Positions 9,544 to 64,000 of a DNA stretch of 64,000 nucleotides are shown one piece after another. A program made the translations under genes and the position numbers. Within the stretch, counting starts at the first letter, position 1. Each line of letters starts with the position of its first letter. The DNA comes from Owenia fusiformis (taxonomy: Eukaryota; Annelida; Polychaeta; Sabellida; Oweniidae), in assembly GCA_903813345.2 (NCBI GenBank), contig CAIIXF020000012.1, positions 24,874,184-24,938,183 of the forward strand. Reading direction: 5' to 3'. The notes under the pieces were generated by a model. It searched no databases. It was not told the DNA's origin and saw nothing but the letters and a program-made list of their open reading frames with translations.

Positions 9544-9624
9544 TACATCAGAAAAATTAATTTGAGAAAAGTAAGTTGACAATAAATATCTTACGAACTC
9601 GCGGCGATACTTACTGGGCACATA

Positions 9625-11860
9625 CACGGTGACCAAGAGTTAACAGTGCAAATTGGCCGGTCGTGTTTTTTCAAACTCTTTAGTCGTGTTTTGTAAGAAC
9701 TTGGGATGCGACATTCGTTAGAATGGAGCAAAAAGATAAGAATATTCTATATTTTACAAACTTACATATCTTGACTTCTACCTTAGATGTTCTTCTTCAT
9801 ACCCACGAATCTATTTTGGGGATAGATCCATCATACTTCATATCAATCGCAATTATATACCAAAAGTGCCAGAAATATGGACTTAATTTAGTGTTATTTA
9901 GTGTTATTTAATTACGTTTAAATAGACAATCCATTCAACAACGTGGAATAATATTCACTAGTCTAAAGATCGTGTAAATATTTTAACTGTATTTATCTTA
10001 AAATTGCCATAAATGACCATAAATGTAGAAAGTGGAGTTAACTATGGAGAAGGGACAACATAACGTCATGGACGTGTCTTATAATAAGCATGTTAACGTT
10101 TCGGAATTGTAAAGATAACGTTTTAGACGTGATAAAATTAAGGACTGAATTGTCTTGTAATAGTGTTCACATTTCACATGTTTTGTTGCTTAATAATTTG
10201 TCTGTGCTTCTGAAAATAATCGCATTAGTATTTTGAAGATGAGTGTTTGTACTACATGACTATTCACATATTTTGTTATTTCAGTTCCTCGGAATAAGTG
10301 TCACGTGTGTGCTTTCAAAAGCGCCGATAAGAACACGTTCCTTGAACTAGTTACAATTGTTTGCTTTTTAAACTAGTACTAAAATAAATTGAAAAACTAA
10401 ATTCTTACTATCTCGTATTTCTGCTAGAAGTTATAACTCAAAAAGTATATTCTTAATCGATAATATAATTTATAGTTTATGTTGGTTTTATAATAATTTG
10501 CGGGCCTAATACGACACACACTATTAATCAGAAACATGCATTATTACACAAGCAGATCCCCCACCATCTATTCATGTATTATTATAAAACACGGGGATAT
10601 ATACATTAGGTGTCACCCATTTACTGTAATTTGTAGTAAAGATATGAATAGATAAGAATAAATAAAAAAGACAGATGTATGATTTAACAAGATCATCAGA
10701 TGTTGTAATTTAATTCGCTAGCAAAGTATGTTACAGTACAGTTCATAGGTCACTCATAGAACCATAGCAGCATATGTAGCGTTTTATACCTATTGCATTG
10801 TGTAAGGCAAATTAGGGAATACCATCGAATCAAATTGTTAAAAATCTTGAGGCGAACCTAATAGATTTTGAGCACTAAATAACGTTGGAGTTATTCCTGA
10901 TATTTGGTGATCATATACTAGTATATGCATTTACAATTTTACATGAAGTGCATCACAAACTAAACATTTTCTCTCATTTTAAATAAATCTATCTACGGTC
11001 ATGACAGGGGAACGTGAGTTTAGGGCCAATAGGGACGTTTTAAAACTTATCTGAGGCAAATTCAAAAATAGCAACGAGCCATTTAATGAGCGTCGGGGCA
11101 ATTAAAAAATATGAATAGTCAAATTTTCAAAACGACGAGCGACGAGGCAAAGCTCGCTTGCATTAACCTTGCGTGTCTGATTCTAACCATCTTGATTTAA
11201 GTATCAAATTCTGTAATGATTCCATAGATCAATCTTGACAAATTATGTCGTACATTTGATTATTGTTAATCATTTATAATTAAGATAGTATTACTCAGAC
11301 AACAACTTCTTCCATTTTTTGGGAGATACATAATGTTAATTGTGCTGTTTCCCACTTCCAAATCGTTAAACCTCAATGTCTCTACACGTCTAAATGTTTC
11401 CAGTAACAAGTCAACGTCATTAACCGTATCTTTTGAACACGTCTAAAGAGTTTAATCTAAAAAATAATATTCGGTCAATTGCTACTTATTTATGCTCTTC
11501 TAACTTGTGGTTTTCGCATATATTGTGAATGCTTTCCTTATGAATCGATGTATTTATTGAATACAAGTCAGGCTAGTGATTTTCAGGCAAAAATATGTAT
11601 AAGACTGACAGAATTGCTCACTTTCCGATATAACAAGACTATAGCATACGATTCGTGCAAATAACACGTTTACGGATACCTGAAGTTAAAATATATAGTA
11701 TGGAAAGGAATATAAATTACTTACTTTACATAAAGTCAAGTGACAGCAATTTCATGAGCAAATTTATCAACCTACCTCTCAAATGTTAAAAAAACACGAC
11801 TAAAGAGTTTGAAAAAAACACGACCGGGCCAATTTGCACTGTTAACTCTTGGTCACCGTG
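9625..11860. mobile_element. CAC-ended element A, TSD ACATA
   Basis: Terminal inverted repeats of about 70 bp begin CACGGTGACCAAGAGTTAAC at 9625 and mirror the end at 11860, differing by small indels. The 5-bp target duplication ACATA lies at 9620-9624 and 11861-11865. Terminal CACGGTG plus a 5-bp duplication fits the Transib/RAG-like superfamily by established knowledge. The 2.1-kb interior is AT-rich with no frame longer than about 62 residues and no recognisable transposase. It is therefore a non-autonomous or decayed copy. Confidence 0.88.
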
Positions 11861-12311
11861 ACATAGCAGAAGGGGAAGGGGGATTTCCCAAATACGAGCA
11901 ATGGTTTTGTTGCGCAGTTCCGAGAGAGCAAAAGCTCATGCTTGATCATATGTGGCAATCTGATTGGGCATGGGTGTGATTTTTTAAATAAATGTTTGTT
12001 TGTATATTTCAGATTATTTAGTTTTTGTGTAATAAGCCTGTGCCCTCTTGTAATTAAAGAATTTCAGCCATGTTAATCTTTGAAAATACCATGGCAGAGA
12101 AACATCAAAATATAAGAGGCCATGTACTTTATTAGCCAAACTAGAAGCAATCCAAGATATACAAATGTAATTTATGTACAATAGGAATATATTTTTCCAT
12201 ATATCATCGATGATCTTTTGATTTCTTACTGGCGCAATAAAACAATGAAATGGGCTGTAATTACAATTACAACTTTAAGTTGATACTTCTAAAAAAATAT
12301 CCAATGATTCA

Positions 12312-12413
12312 CTATGGAAATTAACAGGAAATGACAAAATGGTTCAAAATATTTTCAAAATCAAGCATGGTTTTGACATTTTTTGTTTTGTCATTTCCTG
12401 TTAACTTCCATAG
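12312..12413. repeat. 102-bp near-perfect hairpin
   Basis: CTATGGAAATTAACAGGAAA at the left and TTTCCTGTTAACTTCCATAG at the right form a stem of about 28 bp with one mismatch. Further imperfect pairing lies inside. It sits within the 12000-13862 composite. Confidence 0.7.
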
Positions 12414-12589
12414 CACCTTAAAGCTTATGCTATCTTCTGGGATAAATTCTTACCAAGCCTCCTCCATTATGATTATGTGTTTTTCCAATGAACAATCTGA
12501 TTGGTTGAATAAGAAATGGCGGGAAATTATAAGGAGCATGCAAAACTGCTTGAGCATTGGGAGCATGTATTATTCAGGCCGTTCGTCTG

Positions 12590-12805
12590 TTCCACAATTT
12601 GCGTATTTGTCACGCATTTGGTGGAAAATTTGAAGTCAAGCCAGTTTTTTTTTGCGTGACAGAATATGTAATTAGGAAATACGCATTTTATCAATTGTCA
12701 AGCAAAACTATTTCTGTAGAAAAACTTCAAAAAAGTGATCACCGATATAGCAAAAAAACGAACGCCGAAAAAACGAACGCATTTCGTTCGGACTGTTCAC
12801 ACGAA
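12590..12805 (+). repeat. GCGTGACA-word dispersed repeat, copy 2
   Basis: It contains TTGTCACGCATTTGGTGG and ACGAACGCATTTCGTTCGG, the inverted counterparts of blocks at 2290-2505. Two overlapping open frames of about 100 residues cross it but show no domain. Confidence 0.4.
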
Positions 12806-14228
12806 TACCGTATATCGTCCCATTATTTCCACATTGTTATAACTCACTTTTTGCAGGTTTTGAGATAAATATACTATCTTGCTCAACTTTTCACGAGGAA
12901 TTCATTTCTGAGGTCCATTTCAATGGATCTCATCTCCTTTTGGAGATATCCAGTGCCACATTGTTATAAGGGCAAAATGAGGAAATTCTTTAAAATACAA
13001 ATAATTAGATGGGCAAACTAATGGTATACAGACAATAACAAAATGGAAGTGAATAAAAATTCAGTTTTCAGGGTTATTTTGATATTTCAAAAACAAGAAA
13101 CCATAAAAAATATGTGTTTTATTTATTGTCCATCAGTGATTTTTGTTCTGCAAAGCTTACACATACACATGATTACCCAAACGAAAAAAGAAGTTTCTAA
13201 AAATTACTACTCAGAAGTTATGAAGACCCGAATCTTCAACCTCTGATTTCTCAATATCAGCAAAAATGCAATTATGACAATGTGGAAATAAGGGGACGAT
13301 ATGTCGGGGTAGTTATCAGAAATTTACACCAAGCAGGAAATGAAAAAACCATGTGGATTTTAGAATTTTTTGAAATTTTGAATTGTCTGAAACGAAAATT
13401 GTGGTCTTAAACACTAAAAAAGATAGCTTTTCAAATCATTTTTTTCATTTTTTCTAGATTTCTCGAAATGAATTAAAATTTTCAAATCTCCTATCATTTA
13501 AAGCAATATATTGGGCACATTTTCCTACTTTTAGCTATTTTTCAGTCACACTTTCAGAGGGCTGAAAATGTATTTCATCATCACCTGAAAAATAAGAAAT
13601 CTAAAGACTATTGTGCAATATTATAAAAAAATATTCAAATTGCACATGAATGACATTTGTATATCTTGGATTGCTTGTAAATTGGATCACCTCTTATATT
13701 ATGATGCTTCTCTGCCATGTTAGTTTTGAAAAAAATTACAAGAGGGCACGGGCTTATTGCACTAAACACTAAAAATCCGAAATATACAAATGTCATTCAT
13801 GTGAAATATGAATATATTTTTCTATATTATGGCACAGTAGTCTTTTGATTTCTTATTTCTCAGGTTCAACCCCTTGCGTTTGAAGCATTCTAATAGACTG
13901 TATAATGAGGCATCAACATTTCAATCGTATACTCACCTCAAACTTGTACGATAAAGTCGTGTTTTCCGCTGTTCATCAAGTCGTTGTTATCGTTACTGTC
14001 GGGTGGGCACAAACTTTCTCGTCATTTTGAAATTTCTTTACTTACTAAAATAAACTAGATTGACCCACACGTGGCAAAGCTCAGATCAAATGTATGTGTC
14101 GCACAAGCATGTATTCATGGGCCCGTGTAAACTGCAGTCAGATTCCAGTTGTTGCTACACTAATTAGCTACATTATGATGAATTTTATCCAATAAGAGAC
14201 AAGGTGACTCGGAGCCTTGTTGCAGTTT

Positions 14229-15443
14229 CACGGTGTTATAGCATGACGGTAACGACACCTCTGAAAACGAGATTAGACGACTACGATCACTGATTTATCC
14301 AATAAAATGGCCGCGATGGAACAGAAAACTAAGGTTGGTGCAGTATTTTCTTCTACGAGCTGTGTATCAATGAAAGGATAAACGATTTTTGTAGACATCG
14401 CATTCGGTGATGCATTTAGTAATGTATATTTTGAACGTATTCTTTGCAAATTGATGCCCGGGGATAACATGAAATAAGCGAAAAACTGTTGAGTTTTAAA
14501 TTCAAAACTACACAAAATTTAGTAATTTGTTTATTTTTGTCGTTAGGGCATGGTCTGCATTGCCTATCGACCTCGGGGTATACAGATGTAACCTACATAC
14601 GATCATAAAAAGCCAATTGAGCATTGAAAACCACATAATATGTTCTACTTAAGCCATAATATTGTATTTATCCCAGATTCATTGTTATTAATTTTGTCAT
14701 ATTCATCAGTACTTGATGCTACTTCTTCTTTTGCCTCTTCATTGCTATCTTTTTGACTTAAATTGGTTTCATTAATAAAGCAAGACACAATTTTTTCCTT
14801 GCCCTATAGAGGCTCAAACAAGAGCGTCTCTTGCGAGTCCTGAAAACAAGTATAAGCAATTCAATATTCCATTTCTTACCCATTATAACAATTACATGGA
14901 AAGCGGCTATCAGAACTAGCAACCTTAACTTGAAAGATGTACATGCACGTAACCGTCCGCTAAATATCTAATGTACATCTAATACAATACATTACCGTCC
15001 ATAGAATTCATACGTAGTCGTCTAACGACATTGCGTTTGAAACCTTATTATTTACAATATGGCCACGTTCCTGTTCTGGATTTGTCATTTTATGGCTTGT
15101 TTATACACAGTTTACTTACTGTTAATAGTTTGAGTGGCTCTGAGGCACATATACTGAGAAATCACGAGAATGGACTAAAAATATGAACTTGGACATCTCA
15201 GTCGGTAAGTTTACAGCTATATATTCCGCTTCTAGTAAACCACCTGGCAGATTTGACCCAGTCTTTATAACCATCCATATATACGTCACCGAATGGAACT
15301 AGTTAAAAAGGAAATCTTATCTGTGAATCTTGCCTACAGGCGAGAAAGAGGACATGCTGTCTTTCCCATCCGCCATTTTTTATTATCGTTACCGGAACAT
15401 TTTGCAAATCGCCTTGTCGTAACCGTCATGCTATAACACCGTG
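14229..15443. mobile_element. CAC-ended element B, TSD AGTTT
   Basis: The left end CACGGTGTTATAGCATGACG mirrors the right end at 15443 over about 29 bp with one mismatch. The target duplication AGTTT lies at 14224-14228 and 15444-15448. It shares the terminal heptamer CACGGTG with element A but nothing obvious beyond that. An 80-residue minus-strand open frame at 14273-14515 shows no transposase motif. Confidence 0.9.
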
Positions 15444-15448
15444 AGTTT

Positions 15449-16623
15449 GCACACTTCTTTTTTATCACTACTGGGGATCAACTGAAAACGAAAACACCAT
15501 GTTTTTGGTTCAACATGGCCGGACGTCCAGAAACAGAATTTGGTAATCCCTTTGTTTTAACTAAGAGGAGGGAAACCCCAGAGTTTAAGAGTTAACAGAC
15601 ACTATTACGTCTCTTGCGTACCACCTTCGTTTGCACGAATTCTCAACAGTTGGTTTACGAATATAAAACGTCGTTGTGATGTTCTAAACGATATAAAACT
15701 TTTTCTTACGCATGTCTTCATCTTGATGTGAAAAACAAGCTATGATATTTGTTAACGCGCCAGAAATGAACACGATATTATTCGGAGCGTATTTCGAAAA
15801 TTAGAGGCCACCAAAAGTTGTCGATTTTGACCAATCAGAGACGTGGGTCATCTAGATACCGTACAGATTTACATTATAAGCGTAGGTCATCATTGAACTC
15901 TGGGATTATTCCCCCTATTGTTTTAACTGATTTGAAATCATATTTCAAAACCTGAATCTACGCACTAAATACGTGCCTGGTCGTGCCTGGTCGTGCTCAA
16001 ATTTCGGGGATGTAACTTGAGTGATTAAATCTTATCGTGAAAACAAAAATGTTATCAAATTCTGATTCCCGGGAAATTCGGCCATTTTGCAACGGACACA
16101 TCATCCCTTCCTTTTCAGTTCCAGGAGTTCTTGCCACAACAACTCAGCATCCACTCATATCGCCTGTTCCATTTACACGACGCTTAAGCAATAATTTGTG
16201 AGCTTATAAATACGCTCAAACATCAAACGCACTTAAATCTAAATTATGCGAAGTGAACTGAACAAGAATAATAGATGGCATATGTACTTAAATATCATTA
16301 AAAACAAAATAAATATGAATAGATATATAACTATCAGGGGCCTAGAAAGCAATAAAAATGAGTTTATTGATGAACATCAATTAGATTCATTTTCATTAAT
16401 TAAATGCATTGGCTTTCTTATCAAATTTGAAAGTACTCTAATAACGAAAGTGAAAGTATTTGGCCGTTGTTAGGAATTCCCCAAAACAAGTGTAACAATG
16501 AATGTCACCATACCATCCAATTCCATATTGATGAAGTAATACGCGTAGCCCACTTTTGTGAAAATAAAATATAATGTGACGTTATTACGCTAACAACGAT
16601 AGCTTTGGAGAAACCCCCAAACT
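15449..16623. other. Unassigned sequence between elements B and C
   Basis: A 75-residue plus-strand open frame at 16246-16473 has no recognisable domain and an asparagine/lysine-rich composition expected of AT-rich DNA. I see no gene, RNA or resolved mobile element here. Confidence 0.4.
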
Positions 16624-18328
16624 CACTGGGGGGTGTCGTGATGCAACAACACCGTGTTGTTGCATCAAGATGGCCACACTTCCGGTGATAGATTTTTGTA
16701 CGATATTTTGTTTTCCCATTTTAAACCCATTTCTAGGACGAGTTGCTCAATAATCATACACATGCAGTTAGCGCATGATCTATATTTTAAAAAACTGTCA
16801 TTAGTATACATGTAGCATCATCAAGAAGCGATATATTCGCGGTTTTAATTCCTCACTATTGATGCAACAACATCACTCTGTTTATTATCGATGATGCAAC
16901 AACACCAATGTGCTGATGCAAAAACGCCAATATAATGTATCATTGAATAACAAGAGAAACTGTTTTAGGTGTTGGTCGGGACATGAATAAAACTCGTTTC
17001 AAGTCAGTGGTCCATGAATGAAACGTATTTTGTTTGGTTTCTTAATGTATTTGTCTTTATCAAAGTTAAAAGGATATACAGGGCAAACTAAATACATAGG
17101 CTAAGTATTGAATCCCAGGGAGCCAACCTCATTGATATTGTATTTGAAAAATAAAGATTATACATTTTCTAAATTTAATGCCCTTGATTTACCGTATGGA
17201 GAATTGTTTACAAAGAACTAATATAATTGTGGAAAGACAACAGATATCACGCAGTCACTTTGTGTTGTATATCCTTTGATATTCCCCGAGGGCCGGGGGG
17301 AATCTGGGATTTTACCTTTTTGGGCCCTAAATCCTATCACTTTTGTTTACCTTTTTACTCAGTCGAAGAGAAGAATCCAAAGAGAGCAATACTTCTATAA
17401 TGTGCACCGTGCAAGATTTTCATAAAACGTGTTACTAAACCTCCCTAATAAAGTCAATTAGACATTTTTACACGCTGGCTCTCCAAATAGGAGGAAACAA
17501 AGAATCATACCATATCATAGATGAAGCAATCATCCCATCAACATGCTTCGTGAAACGCGATAAGCTCACGAATGTCACAGTTAAACTGTTTTAGTTATAT
17601 TTTGATAAACAGTGGTAACGTGCATCTACTAGTTTATCACTGTTCCACAGATGGATGACAGATAATTTCCAATAGCTCGTCATGTTTACCGAGAACGAAA
17701 GATGTTTGTCCACCATTTTGAATGATACTAACTGGTGTCAGGGTCATCAAGCTATGGAACGGTGGTTTATGAAAATAGATTGGGTTACTATAGCTTGCTA
17801 TGTTAAAGGCGATAGAACTATGTTATACAACAACTTCCAGTACATTATTATATTTAAAAGTATAAATTTTGGAAAATACATATAAAGAATCTTCGCCCGC
17901 AGGACGTGTATTTTGAATGCCTTGAGAAGAACGCAAATGAGTAATGGACCGGTGTTGCAATATTAGCATTTAAAAATCTGTTCCTCTTGAGATTTATGGT
18001 CTTATGAAATTATACTATTAATTGGTGTTGCTGCATCATTGCTCAAATCTAGAGGAGTGTTGTTGCATCTTCGGTGTGGTGTTGTTGCATCAATAGTGAG
18101 GAACTAAAACCGTGAACTTATTGCTCCTTGATGATGCTACATGTATACTAATGACAGTTTCTTTAAATATAGATCGTGCGCTAACTGCACGTGTATGGTT
18201 ATTGAGAAACTCGTCCTAGAAATGGGTTTAAATTGGGGAAACAAAATATCGTACGAAAATCTATAACCGGAAGTCTGGCCATCTTGATGCAACAACACGG
18301 TGTTGTTGCATCACGATACTCCCCAGTG
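16624..18328. mobile_element. CAC-ended long-TIR element C, TSD AAACT
   Basis: Arms of roughly 280-300 bp (16624-16905 and 18035-18328) begin CACTGGGG and are about 90% alike by eye. The 5-bp duplication AAACT lies at 16619-16623 and 18329-18333. Each arm carries a subterminal perfect palindrome in which TGATGCAACAACACCG folds on its complement, with extra GATGCAACAACA words at the inner edge. The 1.1-kb interior has no transposase-like frame. It is a foldback-type non-autonomous element. Confidence 0.9.
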
Positions 18329-18333
18329 AAACT

Positions 18334-20490: not shown

Positions 20491-20514
20491 AATGAACTGG
20501 ATAAAGTTTGTCAG

Positions 20515-20620
20515 TCTACCCCTACCGCATACACTCGTATTCTACACCGCTCACATTCGGATAAATTCCTATCATGCACCGCATACACTCCTATTCTACA
20601 CCGGTAACATTCCGATCACA
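20515..20620 (+). repeat. Two-unit tandem repeat of about 57 bp
   Basis: CCGCATACACTCGTATTCTA and, 57 bp later, CCGCATACACTCCTATTCTA each lead into a near-identical ACACCG...AACATTC/CACATTC block. It lies directly upstream of the possible exon at 20629. Confidence 0.6.
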
Positions 20621-20628
20621 TCAATCAG

Positions 20629-21430: not shown

Positions 21431-21469
21431 CTGATGGTGATGAAATAGATCACTGCGTGAAAAATGGAA

Positions 21470-23090: not shown

Positions 23091-23094
23091 AAAT

Positions 23095-43251: not shown

Positions 43252-43715
43252 TTTGGGAGGATGAACATTTGCACGTTTGGGAGAGGGTTAACATTTGCAC
43301 ATTTGGGGAGAGGGTTAACATTTGCACATTTGGGGAAGTGCACATTTGGGGAGAGGGAGAACATTTGCACATTTGGGGAGAGGGAGAACATTTGCACATT
43401 TGGGGAGAGGGAGAACATTTCCACATTTGGGGAGAGGGTTAACATTTGCACATTTGGGGAGAGGGAGAACATTTCCACATTTGGGGAGAGGGAGAACATT
43501 TGCACATTTGGGGAGAGGGAGAACATTTGCACATTTTGGGAGAGGGTTAACATTTGCACATTTGGGGAGAGGGTTTACATTTGCACATTTTGGGAGGATG
43601 AACATTTGCACATTTTGGGAGAGGGAGAACATTTGCACATTTTGGGAGAGGGTTAACATTTGCACATTTGGGGAGAGAGTTAACATTTGCACATTTGGGG
43701 AGGTGCACATTTGGG
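43252..43715 (+). repeat. 27-bp minisatellite (ACATTTGCACATTTGGGGAG...)
   Basis: About 17 units of 27 bp follow the pattern ACATTTGCACATTTGGGGAG plus AGGGAGA or AGGGTTA. The array starts about 120 bp after the glycosyltransferase stop codon, so it probably lies in the 3' UTR. Because 27 is a multiple of three, all frames stay open and give nonapeptide repeats on both strands; these are not taken as proteins. The array starts and ends with truncated CACATTTGGGGAGG-type units. Confidence 0.93.
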
Positions 43716-43719
43716 TAGG

Positions 43720-44402
43720 GATAAAAAGGCAAACTACATCTTCATGACAATCAGATACAACTTCAGTTTTTTTTTAATAACAATGTGAAGTTCCTGATGG
43801 ATTCAAGAAATGACCTGCTTTGTGCTATACTTCCAATATTTCATAATCTCATTTGTGAAAATATTTTTTGAGATCAAGTTTTATTTATTGAATATGGGTA
43901 ATTATTAATTCATATTATTATCACATTCCATGATTTTTATAAACATTTTATTTTGATATGTTTCCAACTTATAAAATTGCAATAATGTTATGCTTAAAGG
44001 GACATCAGATACAAAAAAGAGGCAGGGTTAGTTTGCCTACAGATCTATCTCTGATTGACCTTTATTGATCAACATATTTAAAATTTCTAAAGCTTATTTT
44101 TTCATCATATCATATTCATGCAGTAAAGCTTCTTTAAAGGGTGGGCTAGCAAACTAGCTTTAAACTCAAATAGAAAAGGTACACATACACTGCCTACCCT
44201 GTATAAGACGGCTGCTAAACAATTGCTTGTGTAATTACTGTATATATGCAACAATGATTTTGCTCAAACTATTACTGGTTGTGACTTATTGTGGTATTAT
44301 ATTAGATATGTCATACATATTGAAATTATTTTTTTCAGATTTAGAAGCACTCTGGTTAAACTGTTAATATCAGTTTAGAGCTTGAACTCTATAAACTACT
44401 GT
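43720..44402 (+). other. Probable 3'-UTR of the GT62 gene
   Basis: There is no open frame of note. The stretch lies between the minisatellite and the poly(A) signal at 44403 and shows nothing else recognisable. Confidence 0.35.
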
Positions 44403-48783: not shown

Positions 48784-48787
48784 TTAA

Positions 48788-50335: not shown

Positions 50336-50337
50336 CA

Positions 50338-51459: not shown

Positions 51460-54400
51460 CTAGAAAATAGTCCCATGAAGCTGACATATAAAATCGTTCA
51501 ATTGGAAACGGATAAACTACATATACAATATCAGTTAGATGAATGATATTTCCTATTTAATTTCAACTATTTAATCTATTCTAAATGCAATTTTGTTTAC
51601 CAGAACTCACAGCCCTAACATTTAGACAAAGCTCTTTCTTTAATATTTTGGGATTTAAACCAGAAACTTTATGAAACTACCATGTACAGGCTTGGACCAA
51701 GGCATTATTGTTGTTGGGCATATCTATCTCCTCTGAACTGTTAATAACAAAAATCTTACGCACCTTTTTATCTTTTCTCTTAAAAATTGACTTTCCAGCT
51801 GAAAAAATAAAACATGAAATTAATAATTATGGATGGAGATATTTCTAGTAAAATACTGTGTTTTCCTAGTACTGGTATGCAATATGCACGTACAGTGAAC
51901 CTTGTACATAGGAACCACACATTAGTGAACGCTGAAAATGAAAACACTTTTTCAGTCCAAATTTTGAATTCTGATCGCCATTCCATTTTATCTGCACATC
52001 TTAATTTGAACATCTTTCAAAAAATAAGTCAATCACAAGGTTACAGTTGTTCCTACCTAGAACCAATATGGAAAGTGATGATGAGTACTTGAAGCATTCA
52101 TATATCACAAGTTTTTCTGTATCATCACACTAATGTCATGGTAACCAGCTGTATACATTCATATATCATCTCAAAAAACCAATGTGAATTAATTAATTGT
52201 TGTGTGTATCTGCTCAATAAAACTAACCACTTTGAATCATTAATGGCTTAATATAATATAATGGCGATTCTTATCTTGTTTTAAAATACAGACTGCAGAT
52301 GGGTGTATGCTTATGAGTGTGACTGAAATACACAGATTGAGAGTTAGATGATGGTTGTTTCTTAGTTTTTCATTTTACCTAAGAAAATATGTGATACATA
52401 AATTCCATGGTGATTAATATGTTTCTTGACCAATTAGGAATAAAGATATGATATGACTGATGTCAGTCAGAGGCATATAAATTCAAGGTCTTCCAGTGAA
52501 ATGATAATGATAAAGCAGAACTTCAATAGCTTTACATTACTTACTTTTCTTTTGTTTCTTTTTATCAAAATCTGGTTCTGGATCAAATTCTGATATAAAT
52601 TGTCCTAATTCGTTGACATGACCTAGACACATTTTCCTGGAAATATACAATCGCAATACAGTATAAGTGGGGCTAAGGGGTCTTTGTTTATCACAAGGAA
52701 AACACCTAATTGGTGAACTGATATACTAAACTGAGAACATCCTCTCAGCTCATACAGTCCAGGATGTATAGTCAGATTCTGAGAAATCAAAACACAATAT
52801 TTTGCTCTCTGCAATAGCAAAAACATCATAATATAAGGCATTAACATTCAAAATGTCACCACCTGCCATTTGTTAGATGCCAATTGTTACAGATACCATG
52901 TTACAGACACCAACCGCTGAACCCCAAACACCCTCAACAAAAAAGTTGGAGACTAATAACATATGTCATATGAGGTGATGACATAAAAACTATAAATTGC
53001 ATATTTCTCAAGAATTCTTTCGGGAATGTAATCTGATCTAAATTCACATTTTAAGTACCAGGCCCCATATTATCAATCCCTTGTGACACTGGACCCTAGG
53101 GGTCAAACGGTTCAAAATTCCAACAGTTCGGTTCGGTCACGGTTTTTAGGTTCACGGTTCGGTTCTTTCACGGTTCTCGTAAATTGGTAATATTTCCTTG
53201 TAAAATTGTAAAGACAGCTCATAAAAAAACAGGTTTTAGCTTTAAATTGACTTGACAAAGCAAAGTTTATTGGCCTAGTGGTGGCCCACTTTAAATTTTA
53301 AACTTTAGATTTTTCTGTCCTTGATAAGATTTCTGTCAGATAAGAGCTGAGATCTACATGTAGCACAAGCAGTAACATAGCCCCGGGATTCTTGTAGTCT
53401 GTCAAAGCAGCTGAATCAGCACAGATGGCGCTGCGATTGTGCGGGAGATTTAAACACAAATATGTTTCAAGTTTTTAACAAAGACATTAGTAATGTTATA
53501 ATTTCTGTAATTGCAGTATTTTTTAAATAATATTGATTAAAAACTAACTCATTATAACAGACAAAACACCTCCACGAAGCAAAATTAATTGTACTATGAT
53601 TGCCCAAACATTCCACGCAGACCGCACTTGTAAATATTACTGATTATATACTTAACAACACCCAAAATGGGCTTTTAACGGGTGTAGTATATCTTGATTT
53701 GAAAAAAGCCTTTGACACCGTCGATGTAAACCTAATGCTCATGAAAATGCAAAACATCGGTGTCAGAGACAAAGAATTGTCTTGGTTCAGCAGTTATCTT
53801 ATTGGTCGAAGTCAATGTGTAAGTATAAATGGCAAAGTGTCATCTTCATTACCAGTCGAGTATGGAGTACCTCAGGGCTCTGTACTTGGGCCTCTGCTTT
53901 TTATTCTCTACATAAACGACCTCCAAAATCAAATTAAAGACTCAAAAGTCACTCTCTATGCAGATGACACTGCCATATTTTACCATGCCAAAGATATTCA
54001 CTCTATTAAAGCAAAGTTAACAGCTGATATGAATGTGGTACACAAATGGCTGTGCTCAAATAAATTAACATTAAATGTCAAGAAGACTAAATTCATGGTG
54101 TATGGGTCATCCCAGAAACTGTCAAAGGTAGATGAAGGTGACGACATAGTCATAAATGGAGAAAAAATTGAACAAGTCGACGCTTTCAAATATCTTGGTT
54201 TGTGGTTTGATCCAACACTCACTTGGAAAACACATATAACCAAAACTTGTACAAAATTGTCACAAAGGTTAGGGGTCATTGGGAGAGTGAGAGATTCTCT
54301 TACCCTCAATACAACCAAACTTTTAATCCAATCTACCATCACACCCATTTTTGATTATGGTGATGCTGTCATCTCTGGATGCAGCTCACAACTCTTAGAT

Positions 54401-55837
54401 AAAATTCAGAGATTCCAAAACCGTGCTGGTAGATTGATAGTTAAATGTGCCCCACGTACCCCATCCCAGGATGTTAGAAATACTCTGAAGTGGCCATCCA
54501 TAAGAGAGAGACAGGACATGCACAACCTGACACTAATGTATAAGGTAGTGAATGGACTGGTTCCCACTTATATGCAGGACAGTTTTACCTTAACTAAGGA
54601 CACTCACAACTATGGTACTCGTGCTACAACTAACAAATGTATTTTTATTAAACAAAATTGTAATAATGCAGGCACACAAACTTTTAGTCACAGAGCATCT
54701 GTTCTCTGGAACAAGGCACCTTTAGATTTAAAGGAATCTGCCTCAGTGCAATCTTTTAAAGTTCATCTAAAAAAGCAATTCCTTGCTTCAATTAGTGAAT
54801 AATTGTAATTTTACATGTCTTAATATGCTCAAATGTCAAGTGTGACAATTTAATGCTTATTTTTATCGACTAGTCATATAGTATTTTTACACATATTATG
54901 TACTGATTTTACAAATTTCTAATTTTATGATATGTATTGTCACATATTTTATTGTTAAACGTAGTGTGTATGTGTGTCTGCAGGGTTCTTATGGAAACAA
55001 GAAAACATATGTATTTCTTATTAGATATCCCTGAATAAATAAAATCTAAATAAAATAAATAAAAAAATGAATAGCGTAATCTGGCGAGACCAACTTCCGG
55101 TCTATTTATATGTCACAAAAATGTAAACAATTACTTGTCTATCGATTTGTGAGCGATCTGTTTCATATCTAAGGTAAGAATTGAATGTTCTCTATTGCTA
55201 TAAACATGTTTTTAAGGAATATATACATGAAGAATAAGTTCATGTCGAACGAAAGAGAGAATATTGAAGTCTAAAAAATTTGATTTTTCAATTTTTCCTC
55301 GAACCGTGGATGAACCGAATCTCATGTTTATGAACCGAAAATACCGTCCTAGCATCATTAACCGCGGTAACCGCGTACCGCGGTTAACCGTTTGACCCGA
55401 AAATTCAAGACAAAGGGGGCACAGGTGTGGAGACGCCAAATAGAGAGAATGAGAGAGAAGTGGGGAAATGCATGTCAAAATAATGCACAGTACAAAATTT
55501 TGCAAAAAGGAAGAATTACAAAATAGCAGGCCATATAATCTATTTAGAAATGAGTCTCGCATCAAACATAGACATTGAATGTTGATAACTTATTTAACTT
55601 GACAGTGACTTAAAAATACTTACCCCTGATTGGCTCGTTTCCATAACGAGTCAGGATTTAATAATACTGGGTCTTCCATCTGCATTTCATCTGGTTTAGT
55701 TCTACTAAATGCTTTTTTCAAGTTAGAGCCACTCTCGTCAGCTGCTAATAGCGTGTTCTTCTTCGATATGCCCTTATTTGTATCACTGTCTACGCTACCG
55801 CCACCTATACTATGAGCATCAGAACTAGCATCTGATC
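51319..55837 (-). CDS. AKAP10: AKAP10/D-AKAP2-like A-kinase anchoring protein, C-terminal exons (partial)
   Basis: Four exons, 55837-55624, 52636-52545, 51798-51764 and 51459-51319, join in frame through consensus splice sites. The joined protein reads ...NPDSLWKRANQGKMCLGHVN..., ELGQFISEFDPEPDFDKKKQ, TGKSIFKRKDKK, then EEDAAWQVAQMILSEVTK. The last piece fits the amphipathic helix with which D-AKAP2 binds PKA regulatory subunits, and GKM...LGQFI...PEPD is the segment that precedes it in that family. AKAP10 tethers PKA at membranes and carries RGS-like domains upstream; those exons are not seen here and probably lie beyond 64000 or among the transposons. The C-terminus EKSTES continues for seven residues (QQTPPNT). 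The vertebrate protein instead ends soon after EKST with a PDZ-binding tail. Identification rests on motif memory. Confidence 0.8.
51764..51798 (-). CDS. AKAP10: AKAP10-like 35-nt micro-exon
   Basis: The acceptor TTATTTTTTCAG and donor AAAAAG|GTGCGTAAG enclose 35 nt that read (T)GKSIFKRKDKK once the single A of the previous exon is added. It ends in phase 0, as the last exon needs. Confidence 0.75.
51800..52540 (-). other. AKAP10-like intron
   Basis: No transposon end or exon was recognised. A 92-residue open frame on the plus strand (51814-52092) is intronic and has no known domain. Confidence 0.5.
52545..52636 (-). CDS. AKAP10: AKAP10-like exon (third from the 3' end)
   Basis: The acceptor TATATTTCCAG and donor AAAA|GTAAGTAATG are both strong. 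The 92-nt exon encodes KMCLGHVNELGQFISEFDPE and then PDFDKKKQKK, in the phase demanded by both neighbours. Confidence 0.82.
53600..54802 (+). pseudogene. LINE reverse transcriptase, 5'-truncated copy (CR1/Jockey group)
   Basis: There are 400 open codons with no proper start: the frame is preceded by TGA at 53597 and opens PKHSTQTALVNITDYILNN, which is already inside the RT domain. VYLDLKKAFDTVD (30-42), YGVPQGSVLGPLLFILYIND (88-107) and the catalytic YADD (120-123) are intact. The thumb and C-terminal region follow (DAFKYLGLWFDPTLTWKTHI; FDYGDAVISG; FSHRASVLWNKAPLDLK). The endonuclease and ORF1 are missing. The uninterrupted frame suggests a fairly recent insertion. It is not autonomous. Confidence 0.92.
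54803..55070 (+). repeat. LINE 3' UTR and AATAAA-rich tail
   Basis: The LINE's non-coding 3' part ends in an A-rich simple repeat of AATAAA/TAAA units at 55031-55068, typical of a target-primed insertion end. Confidence 0.75.
55624..55837 (-). CDS. AKAP10: AKAP10-like exon (fourth from the 3' end)
   Basis: The acceptor GCACTTCTAG precedes SDASSDAHSIGGGSVDSDTN, then a Ser/Lys-rich linker and DPVLLNPDSLWKRANQG. The donor is GGG|GTAAGTAT-like (exon ends at 55624). It enters needing one base from the previous exon and leaves with two bases (GG), matching the next exon. The first part is low-complexity and probably disordered. Confidence 0.75.
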
Positions 55838-55969
55838 CTAGAAGTGCACAAATCAAAATAATTATTCATGTATCCATTACATAGGAATATACATATACTA
55901 AGTTAAATGTGTATGTACTATGTACTATATATGTTATATATATAGTATTGTTAAATCCTGGGTCATGTT

Positions 55970-57256
55970 CACACTACCCTACCTCGATAGCGCATGCGCG
56001 AATTTTTTGGCTTTCAACCACGTCGCTTTTGAGTATTTCGACTGCTTAGTCAAAAGGTTAATACGTTTGGTGCTCGGAGTGAGTCAATATTGCTATTCGC
56101 TGAACTTCAGTGGTGCGATAGTGAAGTCCATGTTCCAAGTTATATGATAGTTGAAGAAAGAATGTAAATAATATCGTTTTAAATTTTAAAATATTTGATA
56201 TGTCATAGTACACGGTACACAGTTGCAAAAGTTGATCAATACAGGGTACAAGGAATGTAAATTGCTCAATAGTACAGGGAGCGAGGAAGTAAGCTGATTA
56301 TACAGACATACTATGTCCCGATCTCATGTACATTTACGTTGCCAACAGCGAAAATAATGCTAAAAAGGCCGCCTGTTGATGCTTTGAGGTGTCATCAATT
56401 GTTATTTAATCCAAATAAAGTAAACATTATTTTGTAGATTTATATAACCCCTTGAATGGTCTAATTCACTACCCTTCTCAAAAACCGATCATTTAAAATA
56501 TTTTGTTCAAAATACCATCATGCCACGACTTGAGAGCATTTTGTTCTTCACAATTTGCTGTAGCGCTGATTTGACATCGTATTTCTCTATTATTGTAAAA
56601 TAAACTAATACCAGATCGATGTAGTCTTAGATGACGTGTTGAATGTCAGATGTTTTTGGATGGTATCTGCTCCAGTGATTTTGCATTTAATCATGAAACG
56701 CTCATCACAAGACACCTCGAAACAAACATTATCCTGTTTGTGACAAGAGGAAAAATGTTTCACAATATGTTATGCCTTACGGCAAAGTAAAGATACATTT
56801 CTGGGACGACGTTTTTTGCATCTTAAGATTTTAGAAAAACAATTAATTCACAAAAATACAGTTGAATAACATACTGGAAAACGTATCCACATATAACATG
56901 ATGACACGCAGTTTAAATAACAGTTAACTGTTTTTTTGGTTACATATCAATGTAACATTTTTGAAGGGAAACTTACATGCTCCCTGTACGTTGATAGATT
57001 TACTGAAATGTATCGTGTATTGCATTGGGTTTTGCTTCACTGCGCCCACTATTATCTATCTTTGCCTATAGTGGTTTTTTGCCAACAATATTCTACAAAC
57101 TGCTCGATGAATCAATTCTATGTCTGGTAGAATACTAGAAATAAATGTAAAATGTATTTTACGTTCAGAAATATGGAATTAAACCCACGTCCACCATTTG
57201 CAACTTAGCTGTACCCTGTTTCCCTTTTAAACGTGGTCACGTGGTAGGGTAGTGTG
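55970..57256. mobile_element. CAC-ended element H, TSD ATGTT
   Basis: A 14-bp perfect terminal repeat CACACTACCCTACC/GGTAGGGTAGTGTG is flanked by ATGTT at 55965-55969 and 57257-57261. The 1.3-kb interior has no transposase-like frame. Near the left end lies GCGCATGCGC (55990-55999), an NRF1-type palindrome. It sits upstream of the first visible AKAP10-like exon, presumably in an intron. Confidence 0.85.
55990..55999. promoter_or_regulatory. NRF1-like palindrome GCGCATGCGC
   Basis: The core of the vertebrate NRF1 consensus is present exactly once here, 20 bp inside element H. Function is untested, and it may simply be transposon sequence. Confidence 0.3.
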
Positions 57257-58851
57257 ATGTTGGATGAATCCCAGCTACACCTTAGGAACCACTTTTAATT
57301 CACATTTGAACATTCATAAGCAAATGCCTTGTATGGTTTAAAGTACAAAAACCTCTCGAGAAGGCTTTATTCGATGTATATTATGGTTCTGAATCGAAAG
57401 AACTAATTTGGAAAAAAATTCCTAATTTCATTAAACCTAATCATAAACCTAAATTAATCTAAACATATGTATATTAGATATTCTACCATGAAAATATTAT
57501 TACATATATCCAGTCAGATTGATGAGAATGTACCATAAACTATAGGAATAACACACTATTATGACCAAATTAATGGTTATTTTGTTCACTATTTCTAACA
57601 ATATATACCTGAGGCCCGGGTATACAGTAAAATAAAGTTTCTTGTGTTTTGTTACATCTTTATTCACTCATTTGCATGAATAAGTAGCTAAGATAGTAAA
57701 AGTTATATTTACATATACACTAGGCATTACCAACATTAGTACACTGGGGGATTATAAAACATTTTATAATGTATGCCAAGGCCTCAGATATATACTGTAA
57801 AAACACCCTGGGTATAGTCTGTCACGTGACTTCATGGATGACGTGTGCGCGAGTGATTCGCATTTTCTTTCGCTTGAGGTTTGTAATCACACTTTTTACA
57901 TGTTTTAAGATTTTGTATCTCTGTGAAACTTGTCCCGTACCATCAATGTCTGAAGACGATCTAATTCACCAAATATCTCATCCAAGCGTGTCCCGGTTAA
58001 AGAGAAATTCGCACTTTTGTGTCTCGCAAAATGACGTGTGCGCGAGTAAATCGAATTTTACGAAGGATGGGTGCGCGAGTCTAAAATATTTTTATTCACT
58101 TGAGACAATTCTGCAAGCTAAGGCAGAATACAACTCACGTGACATTTGTTTTTGTCATCTTAAAGTAGTATGTTAAAGAATAGTTTGCTATTTTGTAGAT
58201 GTTTCATGTATGGCACATACATGTCTACGTTTAATGACAATAAATGTTTTGAAATAGCTTGTAGGGCTGTCCGGCATTGCAGGTGAATTAAAATTTGAAC
58301 CAAAAAACAACTTCATGGCTCACATTAAATGAGTCATCGAAAAATGAGCCATCTAGACTTCTGACAGTAGTTTCTAAACCACTCGTGCTTGGGCTATCCA
58401 TATTAAATACCTGAAACTAATAATAACAAGTGAAATGTTTTACAAAAACAATTTCCTTATGAGTCGTTCCATGAAATTGTTCTAGAATTGTAATAAATAC
58501 TATAAGGGCACGGTGTTTTCTAACTAATAACTACCTCAATAATTTATGATACCTTAAAGTGTTCTTGGGGTATATATTTTTAAACCAAATTCAAATCATT
58601 TTTAGTAGGGGAGGGGGATGTTTCAAGATTTTACCCATCAGAATACCTTGCTTTGGGGACAAATGCATGGTAGTGACGGGAATCATTACCCAAACTATTT
58701 TGGGCGCAAATCAATTTTGTATTTGACTTTCTATTATGCTGTTCTTCAATTGTTTTTTACAAATGGAGGATCTGAGTACACGAAAGCTCATATTATATTG
58801 CTACATAGCGAACATTGATTTCTGAGTCTGTAAAAACAAAGTATGTGGGAT

Positions 58852-59090
58852 CACCCTTGGTATACGCAGCTGACGAAATGGACCGGTATGGGTCAAAAGC
58901 TGGACCTGTACGGGTGAACTTTGGGGGTACTTAAAATCATTCGGAGGGATCATATATTTCAACTTAGATACGAAGAAGTCAATATTGAGCAAGTTATAGC
59001 TGTTTTAAATTCAAATAAAACCGTTAACCCGTACCGGTCCAGCTTTTGACCCGTACCGATCCATTTTGTCAGCTGCGTATACCAAGGGTG
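58852..59090. mobile_element. CAC-ended palindromic element E, TSD GGGAT
   Basis: CACCCTTGGTATACGCAGCT mirrors its complement at the right end, with GACCGGTA and GGTCAAAAGCTGG blocks in both arms. GGGAT flanks it (58847-58851 and 59091-59095). It is a short deletion relative of element F (62824-63713) and is nested in element D. Confidence 0.92.
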
Positions 59091-59519
59091 GGGATGCGGA
59101 AGAAGTTAGAAGCTCCTATAATTATTTGATATTACTTGGTATCATGGGCTTCCCCTTACTATTCCTTACATCCCTTAGGAAAAAAACAACCATTTTTTCC
59201 GAATTTCAACCGTTAAAATCCATTGCGCAACCATTACAAATCATTGCATAACCATTGCTGCAACCAATTGAAATGGTTTCCAACCATTACATTGCAACCA
59301 TTAAAATTTGGTTGAAAACTTTGGTTGCATATCATTGAAATTATGGAATCATTTGCAACCATTACAAACCATTGATTGTTTAAGTTGCATTTTACCAAAT
59401 GGTTGCAACTATTTACAACCATATTGTGGAAATTATTTAGTTTAAGAATGAGACAATTTGAAACATGAAGAACATACAAGTAAATTGAATGCATTATTAT
59501 GTTTCAAATTACAGTAGTT

Positions 59520-59780
59520 CATGTTTATGGACATATTATTTCTAATTAATTGAAGAGAATAAGGTTTATTCATTTTTGGCACTGGATATGACTTCAAGTT
59601 CATTCTCATAGGCATATTATTTCTATAAAGAATAAGGTTTATTCATTTTTGGTACTTCAAGTATTCAACTTCAAATATTACTTCAAGTTCATGTTCATAG
59701 AGATAGTATTTCTATTTTATTGAAGAGAATCAAGTGTATTCATTTTTGGCACTGGTCATTCTTGTAGTTTATTTGGAAAT
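59520..59780 (+). repeat. Three-unit tandem of about 80-120 bp
   Basis: AGTTCATGTTTATGGACATA-like, GAGAATAAGGTTTATTCATT and TTTTTGGCACTGG blocks repeat three times. An inverted echo (GCATGAACTTGAAGTTGG) lies at about 60243. Confidence 0.65.
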
Positions 59781-60489
59781 TCCTTCTTGATTCATTCAGT
59801 TTTACTAAACAATACAACAAAACATTCTGTGGAAATTTTCTGTTTTTCTCCTGTCTCAACAAAAAAATGTTTCTGACTAAAAGTACATACATACATATTA
59901 TAAAACATCAAAGATTGTATTTCCTGCCTCTTATTTATGATTTGGATTAAGCTAGTGCCAAAATAACTGCTTCTTCAATATCAAAGAAGTCTTATTACAA
60001 CTATTAAGTAGATTAAACTGAAAATGTTTCCAAAACATGATTTTGAAACATCAACATCCTTGTATTTATGCTTTGGATTAGGCAGGAGCCGGATTGATTG
60101 TCTTTTCTTCAATATCATTTACAAATCAAAAAATATTAATTACTATTGGATTAAACTTTAATCATAATGACTGAAAGGGAAATATCTTAAACACTTGAAT
60201 AGATGATATTTCCTTTTACTAGACATGGTTTTATGCCTATGAGCATGAACTTGAAGTTGGATATGTCTCAAAATTGTATTATGAACTTAAGTTAACTATC
60301 GCTAGAAAAAAGAGAATTCATCAAGACCATAGCTGGCTTCAAAAATCTTAATGTGAATCTCATCTAATTTACTATGATTGTGTCATTATTATGGTAGGGG
60401 GAATTCAAAAATAAATTATTCAGACAAAAATAATTCTTAAAAAAAGAATTAATTTGTAATGATTTTGTTAAACTATCAAAACAGAACTT

Positions 60490-60565
60490 TATCTAATTGG
60501 CTGTTCAATGGTTATAATTAGCATTTCAATGGTTATAATTAGCTTTTCAATGGTTATAATTAGCA
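60490..60565 (+). repeat. Three-unit tandem, ~24 bp
   Basis: TTCAATGGTTATAATTAGC is repeated three times in a row, followed by a TTGCCGCTCTGTCTGTGCAA / TTGCTGCTCTGTCTTTG pair. Confidence 0.75.
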
Positions 60566-61039
60566 TTTCAACCGTTGCCGCTCTGTCTGTGCAACTGTTG
60601 CTGCTCTGTCTTTGTACCTTATCTGAATTCAATAATGTGAAATCTTAATTTGTATTTCTACAATTTTCTTAATGAAAATAAGCCAGCAAAATTAAACAAT
60701 ATTGAATTGAAACAAAAAAGAATCCTTATTTTCTTACAAGATTTCTGCATTTTTCATTCTCCTTAAAAACGATACCTGATAAGTGATTGCAATAGTCATA
60801 GAAATAAGTGTTTAAAACCCTAGGGATTAGATTAAATGATATATACAAATAAGTGTATGTTTTTTGTTGTTCTGGAAGTGACGTCAGACTTGTCATTGAG
60901 AACAAGATCCGAGACACACAAAGTCCAAAAAAAATTCTTTAATGAGAGAAGAGTGTGATAGACTGCAGACTACAGACATGCTTACTTAATTACTTACTTA
61001 AAACGTACTAATAATATCAACATAGCCATAGCTAAAAAT

Positions 61040-61180
61040 TATTTCAAATTCATGCAGTTTTTCACCATATTGAGGACTTTTCAAGTGATTTTGGCCAATT
61101 TTTGGCCATAGTTATAAAATATGAATCCCCTTGTAAATTTGTCAAAAGTGCAAAAGCTGGCTACAGGTCTGCCCATGAGC
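61040..61180 (+). repeat. GCAGTTTTTCACCAT repeat, copy 3
   Basis: CAAATTCATGCAGTTTTTCA, GAGGACTTTTCAAGTGATTT and GTCAAAAGTGCAAAAGCTGG follow the order seen at 32530-32670. Confidence 0.55.
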
Positions 61181-62114
61181 ATTCATTTTGAGGATTAATG
61201 GTTGCAATAGTTGCAGTTCTCCATCAATGGTTGCAATCAATTGTAACTGTTAATTTCGATGGGTAATGGTTGTAATGGTTTTGCAATGGTTTTTCAAAAA
61301 TGGTTGCGTAACCATTGCAACTTTATGTAAAAAGGGTTGAAAAGATTGGGTGAAGTAATGGTTGCGCAATGGTTTTGAATGGTTGATATAATGAATTTTC
61401 CTTTGATCTTCAAGGTTGAAATGATGGTTACATGATATGCAATGAAACCATTGAATTTCGGAAAAAATGGTTGTTTTTTTTATAAGGGATGGTTCTGATC
61501 GTGGCGGATGCCGAGTAACCACATAACAACTCTGACCCCCCCCCTTGTATGGGATGTCAATAAATGAATATGCTGCCGGTTTTATGAGACCGCCAAAAAT
61601 TTAATTCTTTGGTTCAAATTTTAATTCACCTGCAATGCCGGACAGCCCTACAAGCTATTTCAAAACATTTATTGTCATTAAACGTAGACATGTATGTGCC
61701 ATACATGAAACATCTACAAAATAGCAAATTATTCTTTAACATACTACTTTAAGATGACAAAAACAAATGTCACGTGAGTTGTATTCTGCCTTAGCTTGCA
61801 GAATTGTCTCAAGTGAATAAAAATATTTTGGACTCGCGCACCCATCCTTCGTAAAATTCGATTTACTCGCGCACACGTCATTTTGCGAGACACAAAAGTG
61901 CGAATTTCTCTTTAACCGGGACACGCTTGGATTAGATATTTGGTGAATTAGATCGTCTTCAGACATTGATGGTACGGGACAAGTTTCACAGAGATACAAA
62001 ATCTTAAAACATGTAAAAAGTGTGATTACAAACCTCAAGCGAAAGAAAATGCGAATCACTCGCGCACACGTCATCCATGAAGTCACGTGACAGACTATAC
62101 CCAGGGTGAAAAAG

Positions 62115-62720
62115 TAGTGGTGCAAGTCTAGAGATGACTAGTCGACTGGACTATGAACAAATGGACCAGAAGTTGACTAAAAACACATTCTTGATGTCTT
62201 TATTTTTACACAAATTACAACAGTGTATCTTACCTCTGAAAAAACAGCTGCTTGTCCCTCGGATATATTATATGTAAATGCTATCCTTTACTGTAACAGA
62301 AATGTTTTGTAGCACTTACCTTAATTAAGAGTTAACTTTTTGTCCTAAATATAATATAAATGTCCTTATACATTTACATTATATACACAGTATTTTATGG
62401 TGCTCATAATATGTTATGTAGGAATGCTATCCTACTTTAAAGTTGTAACAAGTCATTAATCAACAATTACAATCAACAATTACACTGAACTCAGTACAAT
62501 TGTATTTGTAAGCAAATTCCCTTAGGGGACTTCCAATGTTAATGACTTTAAATGAAAATCAGGTGAATTGCACAATGAATTTTCTATCATCTATTTTATT
62601 ATAGTCAATCCTTACGCTCCAAAATCAGTAGCTAATATACCAAAAATAGCACAAATGTAAACTGAACATCCACTGTTCAAATAATTTTGATTGATATTTT
62701 GAAGGTGCCTGGCCTGTAAG
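62115..62720. other. No supportable gene
   Basis: AT-rich sequence between elements D and the TTAA-flanked element; no exon was recognised. Confidence 0.4.
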
Positions 62721-62823
62721 AGGTTTAACCCTTTCACGACAATAGGCTCCATATGGAGCCTTATTATGTAATACCTTTCAGGACGACAGGCTCCTTTTGG
62801 CACCATTATTTTTATTTATATAC

Positions 62824-63713
62824 CACCCTTGGTATACGCAGCTAACGAAAATTGACCGGTACGGGTCAAAAGCTGGACCGGTGCGGGTTAACGGTTTTAT
62901 TTGAATTTAAAATAGCCATAACTTGCTCAATATTGACTTCCTCGTGTCTAATTTGAAATATATGATGCCTCCCGATGCTTTTAAGTACCCCAATTTTTTA
63001 CAGATTTTTAAACAGACCAAAACTCTCTAAATGCGCATTTATGCTCTTTTCTCTCGAGAACGACTGTCTCATTTTCACGATAACTTTTATTTAGTACTTC
63101 TAACATATAAGATCTATTTTTCCCCATCAAGGTATGATGTAAATGACATGCTATTTACATCTTGTGAGTTTCAATGACGCGCGTTAGATTTTATAAAAAA
63201 TGCCAAACTTTGTGACAAAGAATTTCATCCTGCTTGCAGCGAGAAGACGGACCGGTTCGGGGCAATCTCCTTGCAGCGAGAAGACGGACCGGTTCGGGGC
63301 AATAGCTGATGAAATTCTTTGTCACAAAGTTTGGCATTTTTTATAAAATCAAACGCGCGTCATTGAAACTCACAAGATGTAATTAGCATGTCATTTACAT
63401 CATACCTTGATGGGGGAAAATAGATCTTATATGTTAGAAGTACTAAATAAAAGTTATCGTGAAAATGAGACAGTCGTTTTCGAGAGAAAAGAACATAAAT
63501 GCGCATTTAGAGAGTTTTGGTCCGTTTAAAAATCTGTAAAAAATTGGGGTACTTAAAAGCATCGGGAGGCATCATATATTTCAAATTAGACACGAGGAAG
63601 TCAATATTGAGCAAGTTATGGCTGTTTTAAATTCAAATAAAACCTTTAACCCGTACCGGTCCAGCTTTTGACCCGTACCGGTCAATTTTCGTTAGCTGCG
63701 TATACCAAGGGTG
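62824..63713. mobile_element. CAC-ended long-hairpin element F, TSD TATAC
   Basis: The 890-bp element is almost a perfect palindrome, with arms of about 410-440 bp starting CACCCTTGGTATACGCAGCT. TATAC flanks it at 62819-62823 and 63714-63718. The loop contains a tandem pair of a 34-bp unit (63233-63266 and 63270-63303) with GACGGACCGGTTCGGGGCAA. Arm similarity looks above 97%, so this is a young or self-corrected insertion. It is nested in a TTAA-flanked element. Confidence 0.94.
63233..63303 (+). repeat. 34-bp direct repeat in the loop of element F
   Basis: Two exact units start at CTTGCAGCGAGAAGACGGAC with a 3-bp spacer. They occupy the turn of the long hairpin. Confidence 0.9.
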
Positions 63714-64000
63714 TATACATCAATGAAATGACAATATCTCCAGTTCTATTCAGTATTTTTACACCAAATGTTGACAAGTTGTTCTTATGTGATAATCCTT
63801 ACTAAAAAGTGTATATCAGTGATGAAATCCAAGGTATAGGTCCCAGGGCATAGGTATTTTGCAGTTTTCCCCTAAAAAACACTCTTACTTATCTGTCACT
63901 GGGGACAACATTTTCCTCTTATATTCACGTCGGGAAAGGGTTAATGCAGTGTGCAAGCTACTGCATTGAAGGTAATGGTGGAACGAAATCATTTTTGAAA

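Follow-up and report, generated by a model that had tools for sequence, protein, structure and literature searches.

What moved the seven inverted-repeat elements that share one stretch of the genome of the annelid Owenia fusiformis, and could a single kind of enzyme have moved them all? The stretch, called the window here, comprises 64,000 nucleotides of contig CAIIXF020000012.1 (C12:24874184-24938183) in a 498-Mb genome of 525 contigs. An initial annotation had described its elements, E1 to E7, as a Transib/RAG-like colony. The evidence below makes it likely that all are non-autonomous DNA transposons of the cut-and-paste kind, mobilized in trans by one type of transposase with CAC ends, whatever its superfamily.

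All seven elements were confirmed in place: each starts with CAC, ends with GTG, and is flanked by an exact 5-bp direct repeat, which we read as its target duplication. Their terminal inverted repeats (TIRs) and duplications are as follows (window coordinates; no strand is attached to these features).

E1, 9625-11860: 2236-bp TIR element without a transposase open reading frame (ORF), TIR ~70 bp, starting CACGGTGACCAAGAG; duplication ACATA, exact 5 bp, left 9620-9624, right 11861-11865.
E2, 14229-15443: 1215-bp TIR element, TIR ~29 bp, starting CACGGTGTTATAG; duplication AGTTT, exact 5 bp, left 14224-14228, right 15444-15448.
E3, 16624-18328: 1705-bp TIR element, TIR ~280 bp, starting CACTGGGG, from a family with mixed 5- and 6-bp duplications; duplication AAACT, exact 5 bp, left 16619-16623, right 18329-18333.
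E4, 55970-57256: 1287-bp TIR element, TIR ~17 bp, CACACTACCCTACC; duplication ATGTT, exact 5 bp, left 55965-55969, right 57257-57261.
E5, 57804-62108: 4305-bp TIR element, TIR 504 bp, starting CACCCTGGGTATAG, holding E6 and an inverted-repeat insert at 59591-60257; duplication AAAAA, exact 5 bp, left 57799-57803, right 62109-62113.
E6, 58852-59090: 239-bp member of the E7 family inside E5, TIR ~68 bp, starting CACCCTTGGTATACGC; duplication GGGAT, exact 5 bp, left 58847-58851, right 59091-59095.
E7, 62824-63713: 890-bp TIR element, TIR 406 bp, starting CACCCTTGGTATACGC; duplication TATAC, exact 5 bp, left 62819-62823, right 63714-63718.

Inverted repeats in the window were collected with a filter that required the first 7 bases to match exactly, at least 13 of 16 bases to match overall, and arms to lie 150 to 5000 bp apart. 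The filter passed 3115 pairs, 33 of them with a CAC start. An exact 5-bp flanking repeat was present in 10 of the 3115; seven of these were E1 to E7, and the remaining three lacked CAC. In each of 26 controls the left flank was displaced, by between 5 and 30 bases; an exact 5-bp repeat then occurred at 1 to 36 pairs per control, yet the CAC pairs among these came to 3 over all controls together, against seven at the true position. Accident is therefore a very improbable explanation, as the initial annotation had held. Two further inverted-repeat pairs, at 59591-60257 (inside E5) and at 57609-57787, are flanked by repeats of 8 bp (TGGATATG; ATATATAC, low complexity).

The TIRs had been taken to represent at least six unrelated families. 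We found instead five unrelated end-groups (E1, E2, E3, E4, and E5/E6/E7), since E6 and E7 belong to a single family, which E5 matches at 12 of the first 13 bases. Likewise, the seven elements are real, but E6 is not a separate insertion event in the window: the same insertion with identical flanks recurs in another genomic copy of E5 (L033), and a single end with one flank base changed is seen in a further copy (L034). E6-type ends were absent from the E5 copies L032, L035, and L091. Judged from these copies, E6 inserted into an ancestor of the window's E5 and was then inherited with it.

Exact termini of every family were found across the genome, with 104 to 882 per family (counts of exact terminal patterns: E1, 54 + 50; E2, 218 + 241; E3, 243 + 269; E4, 398 + 431; E5, 55 + 62; E6/E7, 458 + 424). 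Reversed-pattern controls gave 0 + 0 for all families except E4 (0 + 2). No transposase ORF was seen by eye in the window's E1 to E7, with E4 judged solely from ORFs of at least 150 amino acids (aa). With TIRs, target duplications, many copies, and no transposase ORF, the elements have the features of non-autonomous TIR transposons. They resemble miniature inverted-repeat transposable elements (MITEs) in these respects and in their absence of coding capacity; they differ from MITEs in that the TIRs of E3, E5, and E7 are long (~280 to 504 bp) and some copies carry other repeats inside. Six full E7 copies have a mean identity of 98.4%, as do six E5 copies over their outer 300 bases; the mean is 97.0% among 16 E1 ends and 95.9% among 13 E4 ends. 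Copies this similar are young, and a source of transposase would therefore have existed recently.

Some copies have their own histories. Between the TIRs of the E5 copies L091 and L032 lies one and the same piece of a reverse transcriptase (97% identity over 1.7 kb), and further E5 spans of ~2.65 kb in the list of termini group with them; an E5 copy holding a retrotransposon piece thus seems to have been copied onward. Nine E2 copies of ~0.6 to 0.8 kb (L038, L039, L065-L069, L071, and L072) have one identical flank, tggtcccctatt / ctattgactatt, on either strand, so E2 sits there within another repeat that spread.

Duplication lengths were read at copies taken whole or by their ends and selected on termini and length, not on flanks; the E2 to E4 samples, drawn from the 100 places listed per family, lean toward the first contigs. 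Counting each target once and including the window, we obtained 94 independent sites in six families, of which 74 had an exact 5-bp duplication, 16 an exact 6-bp duplication, and 4 a duplication off by one base. This count leaves out six E7 loci without two recognized ends (L055, L056, L058, L059, L060, and L064) and eight E2 loci with one and the same target (L039, L065-L069, L071, and L072); L153, of the E7 family, has a 5-bp duplication and also stands outside it. By family, exact 5-bp, exact 6-bp, and near duplications numbered 17, 3, and 1 at 21 E1 sites; 4, 0, and 2 at 6 E2 sites; 16, 13, and 0 at 29 E3 sites; and 7, 0, and 1 at 8 E6/E7 sites, while E4 (14/14) and E5 (16/16) were uniformly 5 bp. 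The expectation of 5-bp duplications genome-wide thus held at 74 of the 94 sites and gave way to 6 bp at 13 of 29 E3 and 3 of 21 E1 sites; no 6-bp duplication occurred at the 44 sites of E2, E4, E5, and E6/E7. The 6-bp repeats are an alignment distinct from the 5-bp one, not a chance lengthening of it. Among exact sites, the 6-bp rate in E3 exceeded that of the remaining families (13/29 versus 3/61; p = 1e-5), and nothing else in the set is as unusual as this mixed stagger of E3. Two E3 subfamilies, one for each length, were considered as the cause and rejected, since a tree of nine copies mixes both lengths.

The families also share a target preference. Sites were read with one copy of the duplication removed; the 90 exact sites give 180 sides. 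For 5-bp duplications the resulting target is C|ANNNT|G, for 6-bp ones C|ANNNNT|G, or C|ANNN(N)T|G overall. A C before or a G after the duplication was present on 104 of the 180 sides, against an expected background of 17.4% (p = 6e-34), and this C/G rule was seen in each family (E1, 22/40 sides; E2, 6/8; E3, 43/58; E4, 13/28; E5, 14/32), most weakly in E6/E7 (6/14; p = 0.023). At the edges of the duplication itself, an initial A or a final T was present on 112 of the 180 sides, and a C or G on 11; the duplications are AT-rich (19% GC versus 35% in the background). The C/G rule holds at both spacings, also within E3. The preference is therefore most likely that of the individual strand-transfer point, at a C^A step.

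The search for a recognized DNA transposase inside the CAC copies examined was negative. Of the 67 ORFs of at least 100 aa in the 74 CAC loci, 54 were scanned against Pfam (E <= 0.01); each of the remaining 13 is a near copy or TIR repeat of one already scanned. None of the 54 matched a DNA-transposase family. Pfam is not known to have a dedicated Transib or Chapaev model, and for that reason this result excludes hAT-like and other modeled transposases better than it does Transib or Chapaev. Matches above the curated cutoff were a zinc knuckle and OSK (L001), an integrase core and Tudor-knot (L033), and a reverse transcriptase (L091; E = 3e-22); below it were a reverse transcriptase (L032) and weak zinc-finger and other matches (L011, L033, and L089). 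A tblastn comparison for hAT ORFs in L001-L040 and L053-L080 gave no hAT match and two weak hits in repeat-like stretches. The long spans examined for autonomous copies were L001, L002, L003, and, as interiors of two spans, L154 and L155 (E1); L036 (E2); L089 and L090 (E3); L029 (E4); L032, L033, and L091 (E5); and L153 (E7), with E3 spans of 4.5 (ends only), 5, 9, 13, and 22 kb and one 12-kb E4 span lying outside this set. No intact autonomous copy of any kind was found among the CAC copies examined. The insert of L033, an E5 copy, holds on its minus strand (1126-3654) an integrase ORF (rve, Tudor-knot) and a match below cutoff to a Pox_A32-like ATPase, which suggests a Polinton-like element.

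How could so many families have moved? A single type of DDE/D transposase acting in trans would recognize CAC ends and join them to C^A steps on both target strands, 5 bp and sometimes 6 bp apart; joining at such steps would leave the rule C|ANNN(N)T|G. The annotated proposal of one transposase type for many end families is supported by the common CAC..GTG ends, the 5(-6)-bp stagger, and a target rule seen again in each family. Because this rule is common to all of them, a single type of transposase is likely, and a similar enzyme probably moved all seven elements. Three points weigh against this reading. No transposase could be tied to any family, so the case for "one type" comes from ends and targets; the uneven 6-bp rate among E3, E1, and the other four families could mean more than one enzyme; and the termini compared were those among the matches listed (100 places per list), so that autonomous copies may have been missed.

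As for the superfamily, our tentative first choice is a CAC..GTG transposase of the CACTA/Mirage/Chapaev/Transib (CMCT) clade that is not canonical Transib; a hAT5/hAT6-like enzyme is possible, some other or new lineage is rather unlikely, and a Transib/RAG-like enzyme is improbable. An excerpt of PMC12730594 gives CAC..GTG or CA..TG ends for CACTA/EnSpm, Mirage, and Chapaev, as seen here. The clade is, however, described with 2- to 5-bp duplications, a range that 6 bp falls outside, and our transposase search of the clade covered Transib only. Transib is the 5-bp member of the clade.

The alternative that fares best is that a hAT5/hAT6-like transposase with CAC ends moves the elements, which we regard as conceivable but on the unlikely side. 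Families with 5-bp and 6-bp duplications, the lengths found in the CAC families, are named hAT5 and hAT6 in the part of PMC12730594 consulted. hAT dimerization exons are common in this genome (138 matches of 150 scored candidates). Twenty of these 138 loci were examined and 15 resolved, that is, all except L042, L049, L081, L084, and L087 (ends and duplications of L045, L046, L048, L050, L051, L083, and L086 read by eye). Exact 8-bp duplications were found at L041, L043, L044, L046, L047, L050, L051, and L052 and a 7/8 match at L045, all with TAG ends; L048, L082, L085, and L088 had exact 5-bp and L083 and L086 4-bp duplications, all with CAG ends. The remark that hAT lineages can make 5-bp duplications is thus borne out by one lineage in this genome, whose stagger may vary too and which fits hAT5 as named in that source. 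Its ends and targets are, however, of another type. None of the 15 resolved hAT loci has a CAC end, and the six CAG-ended sites follow the C/G rule on only 2 of 12 sides (hand count) versus 104 of 180 (Fisher's p = 0.007). Furthermore, no hAT match lay within 12 kb of 412 listed CAC termini (nearest, 12.6 kb), which comprised 100 of the 104 E1 places, 100 of the 117 E5 places, and, among the matches listed, 75 of E2, 62 of E3, and 75 of E4, with E6/E7 outside the comparison. Autonomous hAT copies with these TIRs, which the initial annotation had named as the evidence that would overturn its assignment, were accordingly not encountered among the termini compared.

Several observations on individual hAT loci belong here. 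L048 combines DUF4371 (E = 8e-14) and hAT dimerization (E = 4e-13) domains; with L092 (C12:31120100-31127600) it represents a ~4.7-kb hAT element with CAGGCGCGTAACCAGG-type ends and CTTTT as its 5-bp duplication; the DUF4371 ORF has 405 aa and the hAT dimerization ORF 356 aa. At L083, a loose scan found a CACAATAA pair (12/16) with a 5-bp repeat around the hAT exon, as would be expected of a CAC-ended hAT element; we take the pair as chance, because the boundary common to L083 and its sister copies is CAG. About 700 bases are common to L051 (hAT) and L026 (E3) and occur also in the E3 copy L089, but not in the window's E3 or in L021-L025; the stretch is rich in simple sequence and is probably no link between E3 and hAT.

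A more novel reading, which we rate as rather doubtful, is a new transposase lineage with CAC ends that would read C^A at each nick separately, leaving the stagger free at 5 or 6 bp, with the end sequence perhaps biasing the length. When both ends of an E3 copy had G at position 9, the duplication was 6 bp at 5 of 5 sites; when one end had A and the other G, it was 6 bp at 8 of 24 sites and 5 bp at the other 16 (Fisher's p = 0.011; the sample is small and the pattern was spotted before testing, which makes it a lead only). In Drosophila, seven TIR families tabulated in a section of PMC3276498 keep a single duplication length at no fewer than 98% of sites. No CAC-ended family with mixed 5- and 6-bp duplications was described in the titles or abstracts of the open-license literature searched.

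It is unlikely that the families were moved by several unrelated transposases that converged on CAC ends and the C|A..T|G rule. Past the initial CAC, the five end-groups have unrelated TIRs, and the 6-bp rate varies by family as given above; against this, the same target rule appears in every family and, in E3, at both spacings.

The annotated assignment to a Transib or RAG-like transposase, with CAC heptamer ends and a 5-bp stagger, is unsupported, and we judge it improbable. The elements and their genomic copies do share CAC..GTG termini and mostly 5-bp duplications with this group. The recombination signal sequence (RSS) heptamer is CACAGTG; E1 and E2 begin CACGGTG, one base from it, and the other families differ at two or three bases. 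A flanking C and G also occur in the Drosophila motif C|CANTG|G, according to the part of PMC3276498 that describes it. However, a search of the genome for a RAG1-like or Transib transposase, as the annotation had proposed, gave no candidate by either route. The RAG1 profile PF12940 found no match but found none in 14 control genomes either and scores a HzTransib segment at only E = 0.0094, which makes it a weak test. In PDB, a Transib motif matched HzTransib (6pqn; E = 1e-15) and, weakly, RAG1L (6b40; E = 0.31), and a genome search with the 51-aa HzTransib segment gave no candidate. As a control, an equally long Hermes segment gave 98 matches at E <= 1, with 71 hAT places at E <= 0.001 and 43 to 58% identity; because hAT is abundant, this control shows that the search can bridge divergence, but not that it would detect a single copy. 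For comparison, a mollusc survey reports one Transib element in the portion cited here (PMC10294476).

Three further features separate the CAC families from Transib/RAG: length constancy, GC content, and end motif. The Drosophila Transib element hopper uses a GC-rich CCANTGG target with 5 bp in 532 of 533 duplications, as tabulated in the same part of PMC3276498, that is, 1 of 533 off the mode versus 6 bp at 16 of the 90 exact sites here; taken by themselves, E2, E4, E5, and E6/E7 do keep a near-constant 5 bp. A passage of PMC8289069 describes a common GC bias of target for ProtoRAG, Transib, and RAG, in contrast to the AT-rich duplications with A/T edges that we observed. Past CAC, no family fits, by eye, the protostome RAGL end CACTWMCAAACKTYKBB given in a passage of PMC7204232.

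Chance, that is, accidental 5-bp matches in an AT-rich window rich in inverted repeats, can be dismissed: the filter is loose enough that 100 of its pairs carry a 4-bp match, but the displaced controls and the exact duplication at precisely these ends at 90 of 94 genomic sites refute it.

Elsewhere in the window, a 380-aa ORF at 41987-43129 matches Anp1 (E = 4e-62) and probably represents a glycosyltransferase gene of the host; at 53600-54802 there is a reverse-transcriptase ORF of 400 aa (E = 1e-28). Long open frames of tandem repeats on the minus strand at 31487-32185 and 43315-43773 (LFRGFFAK-like and LPKCANV-like) are probably non-coding satellites.

Taken together, these results take away an attractive but unsupported link to RAG. 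In its place stand several abundant, sequence-unrelated repeat families under one insertion rule, which makes the idea of one enzyme with many substrates testable within one genome. If the end sequence sets the stagger, E3 would show how a transposase holds its target.

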